Source of the DNA: Lysobacteraceae bacterium
Lineage (GTDB): Bacteria; Pseudomonadota; Gammaproteobacteria; Nevskiales; Nevskiaceae
Direction: 5' to 3'
NCBI GenBank assembly: GCA_013823855.1
Contig: PNMW01000086.1
Coordinates: 62,001-126,000 of the forward strand
DNA: 64,000 nucleotides
Both the position numbers and the translations under genes were made by a program. Shown piece after piece: positions 52,653 to 61,095 of the stretch. Below the pieces are notes generated by a model. The model saw only the letters and a program-made list of their open reading frames with translations. It did no database searches and was not told the DNA's origin. The number at the start of each line of letters is the position of its first letter. The stretch's first letter is position 1.

Positions 52653-54482
52653 CTACCCGGCCCGCTTCCTCACCCGGTACTCGACCTGCCCGCGCTTCAG
52701 CTTGAGCAGGCGCGCGGCCGCCGAGACATTGCCGTCGGTCTGCGCCAGCGCGGTATCGAGCAGCAGCTGTTCGATGTCCTCGAACGACGGCAACGCCTGC
52801 AGCAGCTCCATCGCCAGACGGCCGCGTGCATCGGCGGGCGTGTCCGCTGCGGTCGAAGCGCCCGTGCTCGGCAAGGCTTCGGCTTCCGCCCCGGCCGATG
52901 GCACCAGCGCGCCGTGGGCGCTGACGTTGAACGACGACGGCCGCAGCTTTTCGCCGCCGGCGAACAGATGCTGGACGTCGATCGCGCCGTGGTCTTCGGC
53001 AAGGATCACCGCGCGCTGGACCATGTTTTCCAGCTCGCGGACATTGCCCGGCCAGTCGTAGTCCCAGAGCGCATCCCAGGCGCGCGGCGTCAGGCCGGTG
53101 ATCCGCTTGGCGAAACGCTGTGCGTAGCGATCGAGGAACACCGACACCAGCAGCGGAATGTCCTCGCGACGCTCGCGCAGCGGCGGAATCTCGATCGGAA
53201 ACACGTTGAGGCGATAGAACAGGTCGGTGCGGAAACGGCCGGCTTCCATCTCCGCGCGCAGGTCGCGATTGGCGGCGGCGACCAGCCGGACATCGACCCG
53301 GATCGTCCGCGTGCCGCCGACCCGCTCGATCTCGCGCTCCTGGATCGCGCGCAGCAGCTTGCCCTGCGCCGGCAGCGGCAGGCTGGCGATCTCGTCGAGA
53401 AACAAGGTGCCGCCGTCGGCGCGCTCGAAGCGGCCAGGCCGGGCCTGGTCGGCACCGGTATAGGCACCGCGCTCGACCCCGAACAGCTCGGCCTCGACCA
53501 GATCGGGTGGGATCGCCGCGCAGTTGATCGCCACGATCGGCCTGGCCGCCCGCGCGCTGACCGCGTGCAGCGCGCGGGCGAAGCATTCCTTGCCGACGCC
53601 GCTCTCGCCCCTGAACAGCACGGTGGAATCGGTCGGCGCGACGCGGCGCACCAGGTGGGCCACGGCATTGAAGCCGGCCGAGGCGCCGACGAAACCTTCC
53701 AGATTGGTCACCGGCCCGGTCGCGGCGCGGCCGGCGGCCAGCGGGCCCGACGAGGGGCCGGCATCGGCGCCCCGGGCCGATGCCGCCCGTACCGGCGCGC
53801 CGACGAAGCTTTCGACCTGCAGGAAGCTCACTTCCGCCTCGGTGAGGTCGTCCCAGGCGGCCAGCGGCTTGCCGATCACCCGGCAGCGGGCGTGGCCCAT
53901 CGCCACGCATTCGACCTCGCGCCAGTAGATCGGAATACCGGTGACGGCGGTGCAGTAGCCATCGGCATAACCGCGCATCACCCAGCAGGCCGCTTCGCCG
54001 GACAGGCCATGCTGTTCCAGATGGGCCTCGGCTTCCCAGGGTGCGGCCCACAGGAAATCGCCCCAGAACTCGCCCTTCTCGGGATCGAAGCGCATCGCGT
54101 CGATCGGCAGGGTGCGGACGAAGCCCTCGGTCTCGCGCAGCCGCGGGCCGATCGCCAGCGTGTAGGTGAGGTCATCGCCGTACAGCGCGCGCATCCGCTC
54201 GCCGTCCTCGAAGCCCTGGCGGTAGCCGAGGCGGGTCATCAGCTCGCGGGTCGGCCCGAAGCCGAGGCGGGTGATCAGCTCGCGGCGCATCTCGGCGAAC
54301 GGCTGGGCGTGCATCAGCAGCATGCGCTGGCCGAACAGCTGGATGTGGCCGGCATCCGGCGAGAAGCGCAGATGCTCGCCGACCGTGCGCGACAGCCGCT
54401 CGGCGGTCTGCTCGGCGCGGCTGGCGCCGTCGATGCCGGCCACCGGTGCGGCTGCGGCGGGGGACTTCCTGCGGGCGGGCAT
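52653..54482 (-). CDS. XylR/DmpR-type sigma-54-dependent activator
   Basis: A 609-aa enhancer-binding protein. The N-terminal XylR_N sensor and V4R zinc/effector domains (about 35-240; QLFGQRMLLMHAQPFAEMRR, MRGYADGYCTAVTGIPIYWR with Cys-containing V4R core ECVAMGHARCRVIGKP) are followed by the AAA+ domain with Walker A GESGVGKE, the GAYTGA sigma-54 contact loop and FLDEIASLP, and a C-terminal Fis-type HTH (NVSAAARLLKLKRGQVEYRV). Members sense aromatic or related hydrophobic effectors directly. It is divergent from the Baeyer-Villiger-like monooxygenase, which has a sigma-54 promoter. The start at MPARRKS is preferred to a further upstream ATG. Confidence 0.92.
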   Translation of the reverse strand: MPARRKSPAAAAPVAGIDGASRAEQTAERLSRTVGEHLRFSPDAGHIQLFGQRMLLMHAQPFAEMRRELITRLGFGPTRELMTRLGYRQGFEDGERMRALYGDDLTYTLAIGPRLRETEGFVRTLPIDAMRFDPEKGEFWGDFLWAAPWEAEAHLEQHGLSGEAACWVMRGYADGYCTAVTGIPIYWREVECVAMGHARCRVIGKPLAAWDDLTEAEVSFLQVESFVGAPVRAASARGADAGPSSGPLAAGRAATGPVTNLEGFVGASAGFNAVAHLVRRVAPTDSTVLFRGESGVGKECFARALHAVSARAARPIVAINCAAIPPDLVEAELFGVERGAYTGADQARPGRFERADGGTLFLDEIASLPLPAQGKLLRAIQEREIERVGGTRTIRVDVRLVAAANRDLRAEMEAGRFRTDLFYRLNVFPIEIPPLRERREDIPLLVSVFLDRYAQRFAKRITGLTPRAWDALWDYDWPGNVRELENMVQRAVILAEDHGAIDVQHLFAGGEKLRPSSFNVSAHGALVPSAGAEAEALPSTGASTAADTPADARGRLAMELLQALPSFEDIEQLLLDTALAQTDGNVSAAARLLKLKRGQVEYRVRKRAG

Positions 54483-54784
54483 CGGCAGAACCTCGGTCGG
54501 CGTCGGACTGGCCGAGGATGTTTCTTCATTTGCAAAATCACAATGGCGGACGAATCCGTCTTTTTCGGAATACAGGCTTGCCGGCAGCACCAGCATCAGC
54601 GCGCTGATCCGAAAAATTCCAATGAGGGCAATCGTTTGTCGAACCGGACCTGGGCTGGCAAAGACTTTGCTCCTTACCTGGGGTGACCGGGCACGATTGC
54701 GCCATTTCCGGCAAGGCCACGGTCAGCCTCGCGAAGACGAGGCAACCCACCATGAGAACCCGATCCGCGAGGAGGAGAAAACCG
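54483..54784. promoter_or_regulatory. Sigma-54 activator / monooxygenase regulatory region
   Basis: This 302-bp gap contains no gene. It holds a perfect 9-bp inverted repeat TTTTTCGGA (54561-54569) and TCCGAAAAA (54608-54616), centred about 70 bp upstream of the -24 box, as expected of an upstream activating sequence for the adjacent XylR/DmpR-like protein. A smaller repeat GACG-AATC-CGTC lies at 54549-54560. Confidence 0.55.
54656..54671 (+). promoter_or_regulatory. Sigma-54 (-24/-12) promoter of the monooxygenase gene
   Basis: TGGCAAAGACTTTGCT matches the sigma-54 consensus TGGCACRNNNNTTGCW at all but one fixed position, with the invariant GG and GC exactly 10 bp apart. Transcription would start near 54683, about 100 nt before the ATG. 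Confidence 0.75.
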
Positions 54785-56419
<1,635 letters not shown>

Positions 56420-56979: not shown

Positions 56980-57609
56980 TCACGCCGGCGCCTGTCGGGT
57001 CTGGTTCAGCAAGGCGGTCGCGACGGCAGGCTGGGCGCCCAGTCCGACCAGCACCGCGGCGAAGCAGGTCTCCCAGGCGTGCTGCGCCGCTTCGACGCTC
57101 TGGAAGACCTGCTCCATCTCCAGCCCGACCTGTCCGTGCACGGCCGTCCAGAACACCATCAGGCCATCGCGAGGTTCGGCAACCGTCAGGCTGCCTTCGG
57201 CGATGCAGCGCCCGACCGCCACGACGCAGTACTCGAACAGATCGCGAATGCCATGCGGCGTATCGTGCGCCAGCGACAGCCGGCCGCTCGCCAGCGCCAC
57301 CCGGTACAGATCGCGATTCTCCAGCGAGATCGAGCGGTAGCGATTCGACATGCGGACGAAGTCGTGCAGCGCATCGTCGGTCACCGGCACCGCGCGCAGC
57401 GCATCGGCGAAACGGATCACGAACTCGTCGGCGGTGGCCTCGATCAGTTCGTCCTTGCCGGCGAAGTGGCTGTACAGCGACATCGTCGAGGTGCCGAGAT
57501 CGCGGGCCAGCCGCCGCACCGTCAGTGCGCCCGCACCTTCGGTGGCGACGATGTGCGCGGCGATTTCCAGCATGCGGCCACGGCCGAGCAATGCGTTGAC
57601 AGACCTCAT
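56980..57609 (-). CDS. TetR-family transcriptional repressor
   Basis: A 209-aa TetR regulator: N-terminal HTH (ALTVRRLARDLGTSTMSLYS, HFAGKDELIEATADE) and a C-terminal ligand domain of the TetR_C type. Its ATG overlaps the left arm of a strong inverted repeat, pointing to autorepression. It is divergent from the ferredoxin and fusion flavoprotein operon, its evident target. Confidence 0.9.
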   Translation of the reverse strand: MRSVNALLGRGRMLEIAAHIVATEGAGALTVRRLARDLGTSTMSLYSHFAGKDELIEATADEFVIRFADALRAVPVTDDALHDFVRMSNRYRSISLENRDLYRVALASGRLSLAHDTPHGIRDLFEYCVVAVGRCIAEGSLTVAEPRDGLMVFWTAVHGQVGLEMEQVFQSVEAAQHAWETCFAAVLVGLGAQPAVATALLNQTRQAPA

Positions 57610-57640
57610 AACAGTGTTACAGCTTCCATAACACTGTTAT
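57608..57640. promoter_or_regulatory. TetR operator between tetR and the ferredoxin operon
   Basis: Two perfect 12-bp inverted repeats, ATAACAGTGTTA (57608-57619) and TAACACTGTTAT (57629-57640), are separated by 9 bp; each arm is itself nearly symmetric. The left arm covers the tetR start codon. This is a typical double TetR-dimer site. Confidence 0.75.
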
Positions 57641-57701
57641 AAAACGCCGACACCATGCCGTGATCGGCCCGTTCATCTGGTGCTGGTTCGAGGAGTTGCT
57701 G

Positions 57702-57968
57702 ATGACATTCGTGATCGCGTCGCCCTGCATTGCCGACTATTCCTGTCTGGAGGCCTGTCCGGTCGAAGCCATCGGGCCATCGCCGGACAGCGCCGAATTC
57801 CTGCGTGCCGAGCAGTTGTACATCGATCCGGCGCGCTGCATCGACTGCGAAGCCTGCGTCGAAGCCTGCCCGGTCGGCGCAATCTTCCCGGCGGCCAGTA
57901 TCCCCGAACGCTGGAAATCGGCGATCGCCATCAACGCGGCTCACTACGCGGAGCACCGTCATGTCTGA
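57702..57968 (+). CDS. 7Fe-type ferredoxin
   Basis: An 88-aa ferredoxin with Cys9, Cys15 and Cys19 in the first half (PCIADYSCLEACPVEAI) and CIDCEACVEACP (Cys46, Cys49, Cys52, Cys56) in the second. The seven Cys fit one [3Fe-4S] and one [4Fe-4S] cluster. GAGGAG precedes the ATG at 57702. It overlaps the next gene by 8 nt, so it is the evident electron partner of the FprA-like reductase module encoded there. Confidence 0.92.
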   Translation: MTFVIASPCIADYSCLEACPVEAIGPSPDSAEFLRAEQLYIDPARCIDCEACVEACPVGAIFPAASIPERWKSAIAINAAHYAEHRHV

Positions 57969-60900
57969 GTCCCGCCCGCTACGCGTCGCCATTATCGGTT
58001 CCGGACCGGCCGGCATGTATGCCGCGTCGCATCTGCTCGGCTCGCCGACCGGCACCTGGCTGAACGGCCGCATGGTCCATCTGGCGAATCGGCCGATCGA
58101 AGTCGATGTCCTCGACCGGCTGCCGACGCCCTGGGGCCTGGTGCGCGGGGGCGTGGCGCCCGATCACCCGGAAAAGAAGCAGATTGCCGAGGTGTTCGAG
58201 CGGGTCGCGAGCCGTCCGGAATTCCGCTTCTTCGGCCATGTCGAGGTCGGCAGCACGGTGTCGGTCGCCGAACTGGCGGGCTGCTACGACGCGCTGCTGT
58301 TCGCCCACGGTGCCGCCGGCGACCGGCGCCTCGGCATCCCGGGCGAAGACCTGGCCGGCTGCTCGGCGGCCCGTGAATTCGTCGCCTGGTACAACGGCCA
58401 CCCGGATGCCAGCGCGCTGCGCTTCGACTTGAACCACGAGCGGGTGGTAGTGATCGGCAACGGCAATGTCGCACTCGACGTCGCCCGCATCCTGACCCGG
58501 GCACCGGAACCGCTCGCGCGCACTGACATCGCCGATCACGCGCTGGCGGCGTTGCGGGCCAGCCGGGTTCGCGAAGTGGTCATCGTCGGCCGTCGCGGGC
58601 CGCTGGATGCGGCCTTCAACAGCCCGGAACTCGAAGAACTGGGGGAACTTGACGGCGTCGACCTGATCGTCGATCCGCAGCAGTTGCCCGATCTGGATCC
58701 GGCTCGCGCCGCCGGCGCCGATCCGACCACGCTGCGCAAGCTCGAACTGCTGCATCGCTACGCCGCGCGTCCGGCCCGGCCCGGGGCACGCCGGATCGTG
58801 TTCCGCTTCCGGGAATCCCCGGTGGCAGTGCTCGGCGACGAGCAGCAGGTTCGCGGCATTCGTCTGGCAACCCATTCGCCGGGCGGTGCAGCGAAGGCCG
58901 GGACGACCATCGACCTCGACGCCGGGCTGGTGCTGCGCGCGATCGGCTATGCCGGCGTGGCGCTGCCGGGCCTGCCGTTCAATGAGACCGAGCGGCGCAT
59001 TCCGAATCAGGACGGACGGATCATCAACGACGACGGCGTGCTGCCCGGCCACTACGTCGCCGGTTGGGCGCGGCGCGGGCCGAGCGGCATCATCGGCAGC
59101 AATCGCCGCTGCGCCCGTGACGCGGTGCGGATGCTGATCGAGGATGCCGAGCGTGGCCTGATCGGTCAGAAGTCTGTGGCGAATCGCGACGAGGTCGCGC
59201 GTCTGCTCGCAGCGCGGCAGTCGCGGCTGGTGAGCTATCGCGGCTGGCGGGCCATCGATCACGCTGAACGGCGAGCCGGGGCGGCAGCCGGCCGACCCAG
59301 AGTCAAGCAGGTCAGCTTCTCGACCCTGCTGGACACCGCCGAGGCCGGCACGCGCTCCGGGCCGGTGCCGATCGAGGCAGCCCGGCGTTCCGCGCACAAG
59401 CTCGACGCGATCATCGTCGGCTCCGGCCTCGGCGGCCTGTCGACGGCCGCCTGCCTCGCTGCGGCAGGCAAGTCGGTGCTGGTGCTGGAGCAGCACGAGA
59501 TTGTCGGCGGCTGCTCGCAGACTTTCCGGCGCAAGGGCATCTGGGAGTTCGATTGCGGTGTCCATTACGTCGGCGGCTGCGTGCCGGGCTCGGACGGCAC
59601 GATTCCGACCGTGCTGCGCGGCCTCGGTGTCGAGGACCGGATCGCCTGGTCGAAGCTCGACGACGCCGGCATGGATACCGTGCACTTTCCCGATCACCAG
59701 TTCCGGGTGCCGACCAGCTGGGAAGGCCTGACCGACAACCTGCGCCGCTGCTTCCCGGCCGATGCCGATGGCTTGACGAAATGCGTGGCCGAGATGCGCC
59801 GGATCGGTGAAGGCGCGGACCGGATCAACGATGTGCCGCACTCGGTAGGGGTCGTGCTGCCGCTGCTGAAGCGGCCACTGGAAGCGCTGGCGATCGCGCG
59901 CGGCCTGGAATTCCCGATCGGCCACCTGTTCGACCGCTGCAAGCTCGGACTCGAAGCACGCGCCGCACTGCTGGCGCTGGTGCACCTGCACAACACGCCG
60001 CCGTCGCGGACGCCGGCACTGCTCGTTGCGGTACTGCTGCGCCACTACTTCAAGGCCGGCGCGTATTTCCCAACCCAGGGCGGCCAGGTGCTGGCGGCGA
60101 ATCTGGTCGAAGTGATTCGCGCCCATGGCGGCAGCGTGCGAACCAAGACCCGCGTGCAGTCGATCGATGTCGACGCCGGCCGCGTGCAGGGCGTGACCCT
60201 GACCGATGGCGAACGCCTGCGCGCCGAGATCGTGGTCAGCAATGCCGATGCCCATCGCACCTTCCAGAACCTGATCGATCCGCGCCATCTGCGCCGAAGC
60301 ACCGTCGAGCGGATCAAGCGCTTCCGGCGGCCGCATTCGATCTTTTCGATGTACCTCGGCGCCGACATCGACCTGTCGCGCACGCGGCCGGCCACCAACT
60401 TCGTCCTGCACGACCGCTACGACATCCAGACCACCTACGACCTGCTCGACCGCGGCCAGTGGGACCCGAAGGGCTGGCTGGCGATCAGCTCGCCGACCCT
60501 GAAGACCGGCGGCGTCCGGCACTACGGCCCGGCCGGTTACAGCGCCATCGAGATGTTCACGGCTGTGCCGGCCGAGTACGACTTCTGGGGCGGTGGCGAT
60601 CCGATGGCGGGCACCGGCTACAAGTGGTCATCGGTCTACCGCGAGCGCAAGGCCGAGATCGAGGGCGTGCTGCTGGAACGCACGCTGCGGGCGTTGCCGG
60701 AACTGCGCGGCCATGTGGTCTGGCAGGAATCGGCGACACCGCTGACCCATGAGCGCTTCACCTTGTCGCGGATGCCGTACGGCCCGGAGAACGCGAAGGA
60801 CCAGATCGGGCCGTTCCGTCGCCTGGCCGTCACCACCGAGATCGGCGGGCTCTACCTGGCCGGCGCGTCGACCGCCTTCCTGTACGGTGTCGCCTTCACC

Positions 60901-61095
60901 CTGCGCGGCGGCGTCGGCACTGCCTCGGCGATCCTCGGTCGCGACCTGTTCCGGGAATTCCATCGAGGCGAGGTACTGGCCGACCGCTCGGCACTGCCGA
61001 TCCACGATCCCGACTGGGATCCGTTCCAGGCTTGCCGTGGGCATTCACGTTCCCGGGATGACGATCATTCGACGACGGATGCGGCTGCGGCCTGA
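57961..61095 (+). CDS. Fusion of FprA-type ferredoxin reductase and CrtI/RetSat-like flavoprotein
   Basis: A 1044-aa protein with two complete flavoprotein halves. Residues 1 to about 460 form an adrenodoxin reductase/FprA-type ferredoxin-NADP reductase: FAD motif GSGPAG (13-18), LPTPWGLVRGGVAPDHPEKK, NADPH motif VVVIGNGNVALDVARIL and the terminal VAGWARRGPSGIIGSNRRCA. From about 481 it is a phytoene desaturase/retinol saturase-type oxidoreductase with IIVGSGLGGLSTAACLAAAG (487-492 core), VLEQHEIVGGCSQTF, FDCGVHYVGG and the C-terminal FAD contact GLYLAGASTAFLYGVAFTLRGG. The linker is 20-30 residues and in frame. It would combine NADPH-to-ferredoxin electron transfer with a desaturase/saturase on a lipid or isoprenoid substrate. 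Substrate unknown. Confidence 0.87.
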   Translation: MSESRPLRVAIIGSGPAGMYAASHLLGSPTGTWLNGRMVHLANRPIEVDVLDRLPTPWGLVRGGVAPDHPEKKQIAEVFERVASRPEFRFFGHVEVGSTVSVAELAGCYDALLFAHGAAGDRRLGIPGEDLAGCSAAREFVAWYNGHPDASALRFDLNHERVVVIGNGNVALDVARILTRAPEPLARTDIADHALAALRASRVREVVIVGRRGPLDAAFNSPELEELGELDGVDLIVDPQQLPDLDPARAAGADPTTLRKLELLHRYAARPARPGARRIVFRFRESPVAVLGDEQQVRGIRLATHSPGGAAKAGTTIDLDAGLVLRAIGYAGVALPGLPFNETERRIPNQDGRIINDDGVLPGHYVAGWARRGPSGIIGSNRRCARDAVRMLIEDAERGLIGQKSVANRDEVARLLAARQSRLVSYRGWRAIDHAERRAGAAAGRPRVKQVSFSTLLDTAEAGTRSGPVPIEAARRSAHKLDAIIVGSGLGGLSTAACLAAAGKSVLVLEQHEIVGGCSQTFRRKGIWEFDCGVHYVGGCVPGSDGTIPTVLRGLGVEDRIAWSKLDDAGMDTVHFPDHQFRVPTSWEGLTDNLRRCFPADADGLTKCVAEMRRIGEGADRINDVPHSVGVVLPLLKRPLEALAIARGLEFPIGHLFDRCKLGLEARAALLALVHLHNTPPSRTPALLVAVLLRHYFKAGAYFPTQGGQVLAANLVEVIRAHGGSVRTKTRVQSIDVDAGRVQGVTLTDGERLRAEIVVSNADAHRTFQNLIDPRHLRRSTVERIKRFRRPHSIFSMYLGADIDLSRTRPATNFVLHDRYDIQTTYDLLDRGQWDPKGWLAISSPTLKTGGVRHYGPAGYSAIEMFTAVPAEYDFWGGGDPMAGTGYKWSSVYRERKAEIEGVLLERTLRALPELRGHVVWQESATPLTHERFTLSRMPYGPENAKDQIGPFRRLAVTTEIGGLYLAGASTAFLYGVAFTLRGGVGTASAILGRDLFREFHRGEVLADRSALPIHDPDWDPFQACRGHSRSRDDDHSTTDAAAA

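Follow-up and report, generated by a model that had tools for sequence, protein, structure and literature searches.

A ferredoxin gene overlapping a fused FprA-type reductase and CrtI-superfamily flavoprotein forms a candidate self-contained reductase unit in Nevskiaceae

Layout and conservation of the ferredoxin–fusion operon

We analyzed a 64,000-nucleotide stretch of DNA from a Lysobacteraceae bacterium (contig PNMW01000086.1, positions 62,001 to 126,000; hereafter the window) in which a ferredoxin (Fd) gene overlaps a gene encoding an FprA-type reductase fused to a flavoprotein of the CrtI/CrtISO superfamily, behind a divergent gene for a TetR-family regulator. The Fd gene (57702..57968, + strand) begins at ATG 57702, 6 nt after a Shine-Dalgarno-like GAGGAG (57690..57695, +), and ends with a TGA at 57968, encoding 88 amino acids. 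The fusion gene (57961..61095, +) runs from ATG 57961 to a TGA ending at 61095 and encodes 1,044 residues: an FprA half (residues 1–457; 57961..59331, +), a 22-residue linker that is unconserved by identity among four fusions (residues 458–479; 59332..59397, +), and the CrtI/CrtISO-superfamily half, hereafter the C-half (residues 480–1044 plus stop codon; 59398..61095, +). The original prediction described one uninterrupted frame of 1,044 codons that overlaps the ferredoxin gene by 8 nt and carries two flavin adenine dinucleotide (FAD) motifs. We find no internal stop in 57961–61095, the 8-nt overlap is evident from the two separate frames, and GSGPAG and GSGLGG lie at residues 13–18 and 487–492 as claimed; the start at 57702 quoted there is that of Fd, the fusion itself starting at 57961. 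Gene calls were made with a simple script, by which the operon comprises two genes and the next gene downstream sits on the opposite strand.

Counting the genomes that share the fusion, as had been proposed, we recovered it, both halves intact, from four of the 85 genomes searched in the order, representing two genera: the window's own genome (G000) and G389, G381 and G418, whose fusions are 92%, 71% and 69% identical to that of the window. G418 belongs to a different genus and carries its fusion on one contig, and the Fd gene stands directly ahead of the fusion in all four genomes. Over the six pairs among these fusions, identity is 55–87% in the FprA half, 76–97% in the C-half and 19–73% in the linker, and nonsynonymous divergence (dN) is below synonymous divergence (dS) in both halves of every pair. 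Between the window and G381, dN and dS are 0.309 and 1.648 in the FprA half, 0.131 and 1.324 in the C-half and 0.870 and 0.911 in the linker; dS mostly exceeds 1, so these values are rough, and one linker dS is undefined. Both halves are under purifying selection, with the linker free to drift. Because three further intact copies exist at 69–92% identity and dN is below dS in both halves, the fusion is not the product of chance or sequencing error, and the stop or frameshift near codons 455–480 against which the original prediction had cautioned is contradicted.

A family-level search with the C-half (58 genomes, E 1e-40) gave matches in 20 genomes, comprising the same four fused frames (1,080–1,126 amino acids), a fragment in G395 and standalone relatives; an open frame of 1,136 amino acids in G413 matches the C-half only, and the gene called there has 550. 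At E 1e-60, 4 genomes in a class sample (369 genomes) and 21 in a phylum sample (398 genomes) had a match, with the window's own genome the only fused case in the former and the only one spanning both halves in the latter; it was the sole match in a further phylum-sample search at E 1e-50. These searches scored few candidates per genome, and rare fusions could escape them. We did not count G395 as a fifth intact fusion, since a contig edge coincides with the start of its C-half, and the FprA piece that it carries on contig C65 is part of a molybdenum (Mo) enzyme–Fd–FprA operon. Two Streptomyces loci (L017 and L018) were rejected as a split fusion, the second match covering no more than the FAD-motif region in a protein of the FMO type, and a scan of viral contigs for C-half relatives returned one short match, again in the FAD-motif region.

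Ferredoxin, reductase and flavoprotein modules

Sequence evidence identifies Fd as a 7Fe-type ferredoxin, as originally predicted. Cysteines at positions 9/15/19 and 46/49/52/56 read as the seven-cysteine pattern (C..C...CP plus CxxCxxCxxxCP), Pfam Fer4 families match the protein, and phmmer aligns it to the 7Fe ferredoxins 1h98 and 1bc6, with the first cysteine spacing two residues shorter than in the aligned 1h98; its scores lie below the FdxA equivalog cut-offs (57.8, 45.2 and 43.6 bits vs 125, 135 and 65). Residues 1–457 of the fusion are likewise assigned by homology to the FprA/adrenodoxin reductase family, in line with the reductase first proposed, with full-length phmmer matches to FprA (1lqt, residues 5–457, E 1.8e-120) and to 1cjc (E 3.2e-78). 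The alignment to 1lqt is unbroken through the FAD GxGxxG, GNGNVALD and RRG stretches, the latter two of which we take to act in NADPH binding, and a structure model of this half matches 1lqt with a TM score of 0.88 by target length.

Besides the window, we examined 41 loci, three of them fusions and 38 others, with flanks at many of only 1.5 kb, where an absence of neighbors is weak. An Fd lies directly upstream of FprA at 17 of the 38 non-fusion loci. Five of these are actinobacterial with Fd in the same frame (L015, L017, L018, L019 (Mycobacterium) and L022), and the remaining 12 have a separate Fd, 11 of them adjoining a molybdopterin oxidoreductase. Service to P450s or other oxygenases, assumed at the outset as the normal role of FprA-type reductases, is not a given here: the neighbor found is a Mo enzyme, P450 neighbors lying outside the search at those loci. 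Two of the molybdopterin oxidoreductases were scored and fit best to formate dehydrogenase alpha (Fdh-alpha), below its cut-off, and the recurrent neighborhood may represent an NADPH- or formate-linked Mo system. Oxidoreductase (two scored as Fdh-alpha/NasC-like, below cut-off), 7Fe-type Fd and FprA were seen together at L051, L052, L053, L087, L016, L031, L032, L033, L035, L041 and L057. In a 30-row FprA tree the four fusions form one clade (support 94/94, narrowly short of the star threshold that the program applies) that groups with Mo-associated FprAs at weak support (88/70). The Fd–FprA pair looks portable between partner enzymes and is here wired to a CrtI-like one, and the simplest reading is that the fusion arose once, from an Fd–FprA module that partners other enzymes. 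Separately, a Streptomyces cluster combines an FMO-type protein, an AurF-like diiron oxygenase and an Fd–FprA fusion (L017 6091–10417 and L018 5992–10233; FMO and AurF family tests cover L017).

The C-half had been described as CrtI/RetSat-type, and of this description superfamily membership stands while the curated CrtI and CrtISO cut-offs are not reached. Its best NCBIfam model is TIGR02730 (CrtISO; 146.7 bits, E 9.7e-43, cut-off 586.9), and it scores 120.2 bits on TIGR02734 (CrtI; E 9.9e-35, cut-off 238.1), on which the genome's own CrtI scores 582.6 bits. A nine-sequence C-half profile aligns over both FAD-motif regions, at the ends of 4rep and 4dgk, and over parts of 5mog. By these scores the C-half falls within the CrtI/CrtISO superfamily without being an equivalog of either CrtI or CrtISO. 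A motif, FDxG(V/L)HY(V/I/L)G (HYxG), occurs in every C-half row that extends over its position (13 of 13; 4 fusions and 9 relatives) and is missing from the genome's own CrtI, CrtD and CrtI-like rows; we take it to be linked to RetSat and to support the putative RetSat-type label. A complete FAD site in each half, also part of the original prediction, is well supported for the FprA half; for the C-half the evidence is the profile alignment, both structure models being poor there. CrtO-type ketolases share the superfamily, but the C-half scores low on their model (NF045689, 68.8 of 1000 bits), and it might by that kinship be a mono-oxygenase whose reduced flavin activates O2, a reading we consider very unlikely, having found no specific feature for it.

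Unfused C-half relatives at about 32–41% identity occur in the Nevskiaceae genomes G387, G381, G411 and G413, in G025 and two genomes of the same class, on a Streptomyces plasmid beside nonribosomal peptide synthetase (NRPS) genes, and on a Rhodococcus plasmid adjoining an AurF-type oxygenase and an MCE-family gene; further relatives at 28–31% identity lie at 13 places in family genomes. The gene following the standalone relative overlaps it by 4 nt in G411 and by 1 nt in G413 and is FMN_red-like, by Pfam in G411 and in G413 by 68% identity to the G411 gene. These FMN_red/flavodoxin-like pairs lie at L056 8941–11045 (4 nt) and L055 9596–11703 (1 nt).

Transcriptional control, neighborhood and proposed electron route

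The divergent TetR-family gene (56980..57609, − strand; TetR_N plus TetR_C_33 by Pfam, TetR_N above cut-off) presumably encodes a dedicated repressor of the Fd–fusion operon. The predicted TetR operator ahead of the unit proves to be two sites, operator 1 at 57608..57620 (ATAACAGTGTTAC, +) and the near-palindromic operator 2 at 57628..57640 (ATAACACTGTTAT, +). Across the 3.87 Mb genome, ATAACASTGTTAY is matched exactly at these two sites alone, vs nowhere for a reversed control pattern. With two mismatches allowed, three more ATAACASTGTTAY places appear vs two for the control, which is chance level. A putative promoter, TTGACA–16 nt–TACAGC (57596..57623, +), read by eye from an alignment of four upstream regions, overlaps operator 1; the TTGACA element is common to the window, G389 and G381 and by this reading places operator 1 between −35 and −10, the −10 position in G381 reading TATACA. 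An automatic sigma-70 scan listed no promoter in the upstream region. In G389 (90%) and G381 (67%) a TetR orthologue neighbors the fusion, a TetR fragment lies on a separate contig in G395, and G418 has no TetR homologue at E 1e-15. Operator-like sites are present upstream of the fusion in G389 (two), G381 (two) and G418 (one, partial). Of the three inexact places, the one at C24 (L085 8019–8808) is an operator-like ATAACGATGTTAT roughly 160 nt past a second, weakly similar TetR gene (28–32% identical) and ahead of an enoyl-CoA-hydratase-like gene (labeled by eye).

Near the unit the window encodes a Baeyer–Villiger monooxygenase (BVMO)-like protein, a XylR/V4R activator, SDRs, acyl-CoA dehydrogenases, an AMP ligase and an amidohydrolase. 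The fusion in G418 neighbors genes for an acyl-CoA dehydrogenase, a nitronate monooxygenase, an SDR, an enoyl-CoA hydratase, FadL/TodX, an aldehyde dehydrogenase, an alpha/beta hydrolase and MDR proteins, and in G389 none of four fusion neighbors tested is of these kinds. Such surroundings may point to the breakdown of some hydrophobic compound. The BVMO and other upstream genes were rejected as members of the unit, being without a homologue around the fusion in G389, G381 and G418, and the Fd–fusion unit seems to travel alone. The FMO/BVMO-like gene itself (54683–56419) has PtlE as its best NCBIfam match (259.9 of 1100 bits), and the XylR/V4R sigma-54 activator gene (52653–54596) lies next to it.

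We considered whether the C-half is tethered merely for co-regulation, with Fd and FprA supplying P450s or other oxygenases in trans. P450 matches are present in all five genomes searched (5 to 12 each), and no FprA other than the fused one turned up in G000, G381, G389 and G418 (E 1e-20), as this arrangement would have it. In the window's own genome, however, all five P450 places lie off C8, the contig that carries the window, and TetR control through operators unique in their exact form would fit one specific step better, making supply in trans a clearly improbable account.

Because control is dedicated, the enzymes are tethered in a single chain and Fd recurs paired with FprA, we favor a flow from NADPH through FAD, Fd and a second FAD to a carbon–carbon double bond, and put the prospect that the unit is a self-contained, substrate-inducible reductase of this kind at about even. 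In this scheme the FprA-half FAD would take its electrons from NADPH and hand them on singly, through the co-translated 7Fe Fd or straight over the linker, to the C-half FAD, which once reduced would saturate a double bond in the substrate. That substrate would be a hydrophobic compound, probably an isoprenoid or terpenoid, and it is also the probable ligand that would release the TetR repressor. Also in favor of this reading are the Fd gene ahead of every intact fusion, the purifying selection on both halves, the single FprA clade of the fusions, the lack of a second FprA at E 1e-20 in the four genomes, the unfused Fd–FprA pairs adjoining a Mo enzyme and, for the C-half type, the FMN_red-like gene overlapping standalone relatives in G411 and G413.

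The original prediction left open a saturase-like step or desaturation coupled to NADPH regeneration, of which we judge the former the better option. An oxidative desaturase regenerating NADPH through Fd and FprA would suit a C-half in the CrtI superfamily, and the formate dehydrogenase-like scores of the Mo enzymes beside related Fd–FprA pairs mean that electrons could run in that direction. Oxidation of C–C to C=C with NADP+ as acceptor is, however, uphill for electrons. In excerpted reports, rice PDS hands electrons to benzoquinones (PMC4492965), and the nearest precedents, archaeal geranylgeranyl reductases (GGRs) with ferredoxin, are reductive (PMC10821996, PMC6401487). On these grounds, this is the least probable of the readings. 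Carotenoid desaturation in particular was rejected as the role of the fusion and is already covered, because CrtI and CrtD scoring above cut-off are encoded elsewhere in the genome. They lie in a cluster (L088, C2:70001–89999) whose other proteins presumably include BchX/Y/Z and CrtB/C/E, which makes anoxygenic phototrophy a possibility for the host.

Several observations weigh against a saturase fed by NADPH. The C-terminal FAD motif is altered in the fusions (GASTAFLYGVAFTLRGG in the window), and two of its glycines are lost in all five fusion rows (G395 fragment included) and kept in all nine standalone relatives; because these glycines are replaced, flavin binding or chemistry may differ in the fusions. 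Structure models were set aside for reading the C-half fold owing to low predicted local distance difference test (pLDDT) scores: the full-fusion model (8 sequences; mean 53.9, residues 623–1044 below 50) is useful in the FprA half only, and the model of the C-half alone (3 sequences) averages 33.5. G387 encodes a standalone relative but yielded no FprA at E 1e-20, and this C-half enzyme type can therefore work with donors other than FprA; an FMN_red neighbor was found at two of the nine standalone relatives tested, and neither at the other seven nor at the four more distant relatives L095–L098. Gene order around the fusion varies from genome to genome. In the Mo operons, electrons might instead flow from formate to NADP+. 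Finally, hydroxyarchaeol synthesis by a CrtI homologue is an addition of water. In Methanosarcina, an excerpted report assigns the making of hydroxyarchaeol, and not a saturation, to such a homologue of phytoene desaturase (PMC10821996).

This last precedent favors the main rival, a redox-neutral enzyme in which the FprA half would keep the second FAD reduced for cis–trans isomerization, as in CrtISO, or for double-bond hydration. The top NCBIfam score of the C-half, 146.7 bits, is for a carotenoid isomerase model, but it falls far under that model's cut-off of 586.9 bits, and a whole dedicated NADPH chain would exceed the needs of priming a flavin; we regard such chemistry as unlikely, though it deserves more weight than the other alternatives.

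Comparison with known systems

NADPH-driven saturation, the reading we prefer, can be set against several characterized enzymes. Literature searches, confined to open-licence papers and directed only in part at a tie to a ferredoxin or reductase, turned up no description of such a fusion, and the originally asserted lack of a described precedent holds to that extent. Mycobacterial FprB (Rv0886) is, in an excerpted account, an Fd–FNR fusion (PMC6469627). In-frame Fd–FprA relatives of the window's two proteins occur at the five actinobacterial loci, FprB itself lying outside this comparison; in the window, by contrast, Fd has an overlapping gene of its own, and it is the C-terminus of FprA that bears an enzyme, a CrtI-like one, so Fd and FprA do not form a single chain. 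The C-half resembles the CrtI/CrtISO/RetSat superfamily in aligning by profile at both FAD-motif regions to 4rep and 4dgk, and in parts to 5mog, and differs from CrtI and CrtISO in scoring under their cut-offs, in its fusion to a reductase and in its changed C-terminal FAD motif.

Archaeal GGR belongs to a flavoprotein family different from CrtI. By analogy it is the nearest functional precedent that we found, an isoprenoid-saturating flavoprotein with a neighboring ferredoxin gene in its operon, and the excerpted reports mention no FprA fusion for it (PMC10821996, PMC6401487). RetSat is described in such excerpts only as "NADH/NADPH- or FADH-dependent" (PMC5577314, PMC7439486), and the source of reducing equivalents for CrtI/RetSat-like flavoproteins seems ill defined. 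A fusion that bears its own NADPH reductase and ferredoxin makes this question directly testable with two proteins; a self-sufficient saturase, if that is what it is, would reveal a possible natural electron route into a RetSat-like flavin, and the fusion could double as a compact biocatalyst for C=C reduction.

Dihydropyrimidine dehydrogenase combines Fe–S clusters with a second flavin for C=C reduction, using an FMN domain and a pyrimidine substrate. It appears in the Foldseek list for the FprA-half model (E about 2e-11, behind FprA), and an NADPH–FAD module is common to both systems, whereas the parts in the window come from the FprA, 7Fe Fd and CrtI families, with Fd as a separate chain. 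We tentatively suggest, at somewhat short of an even chance, that the unit is a self-sufficient saturase of the CrtI/RetSat superfamily with a remodeled second FAD site, which would reproduce dihydropyrimidine dehydrogenase-like wiring from other parts.

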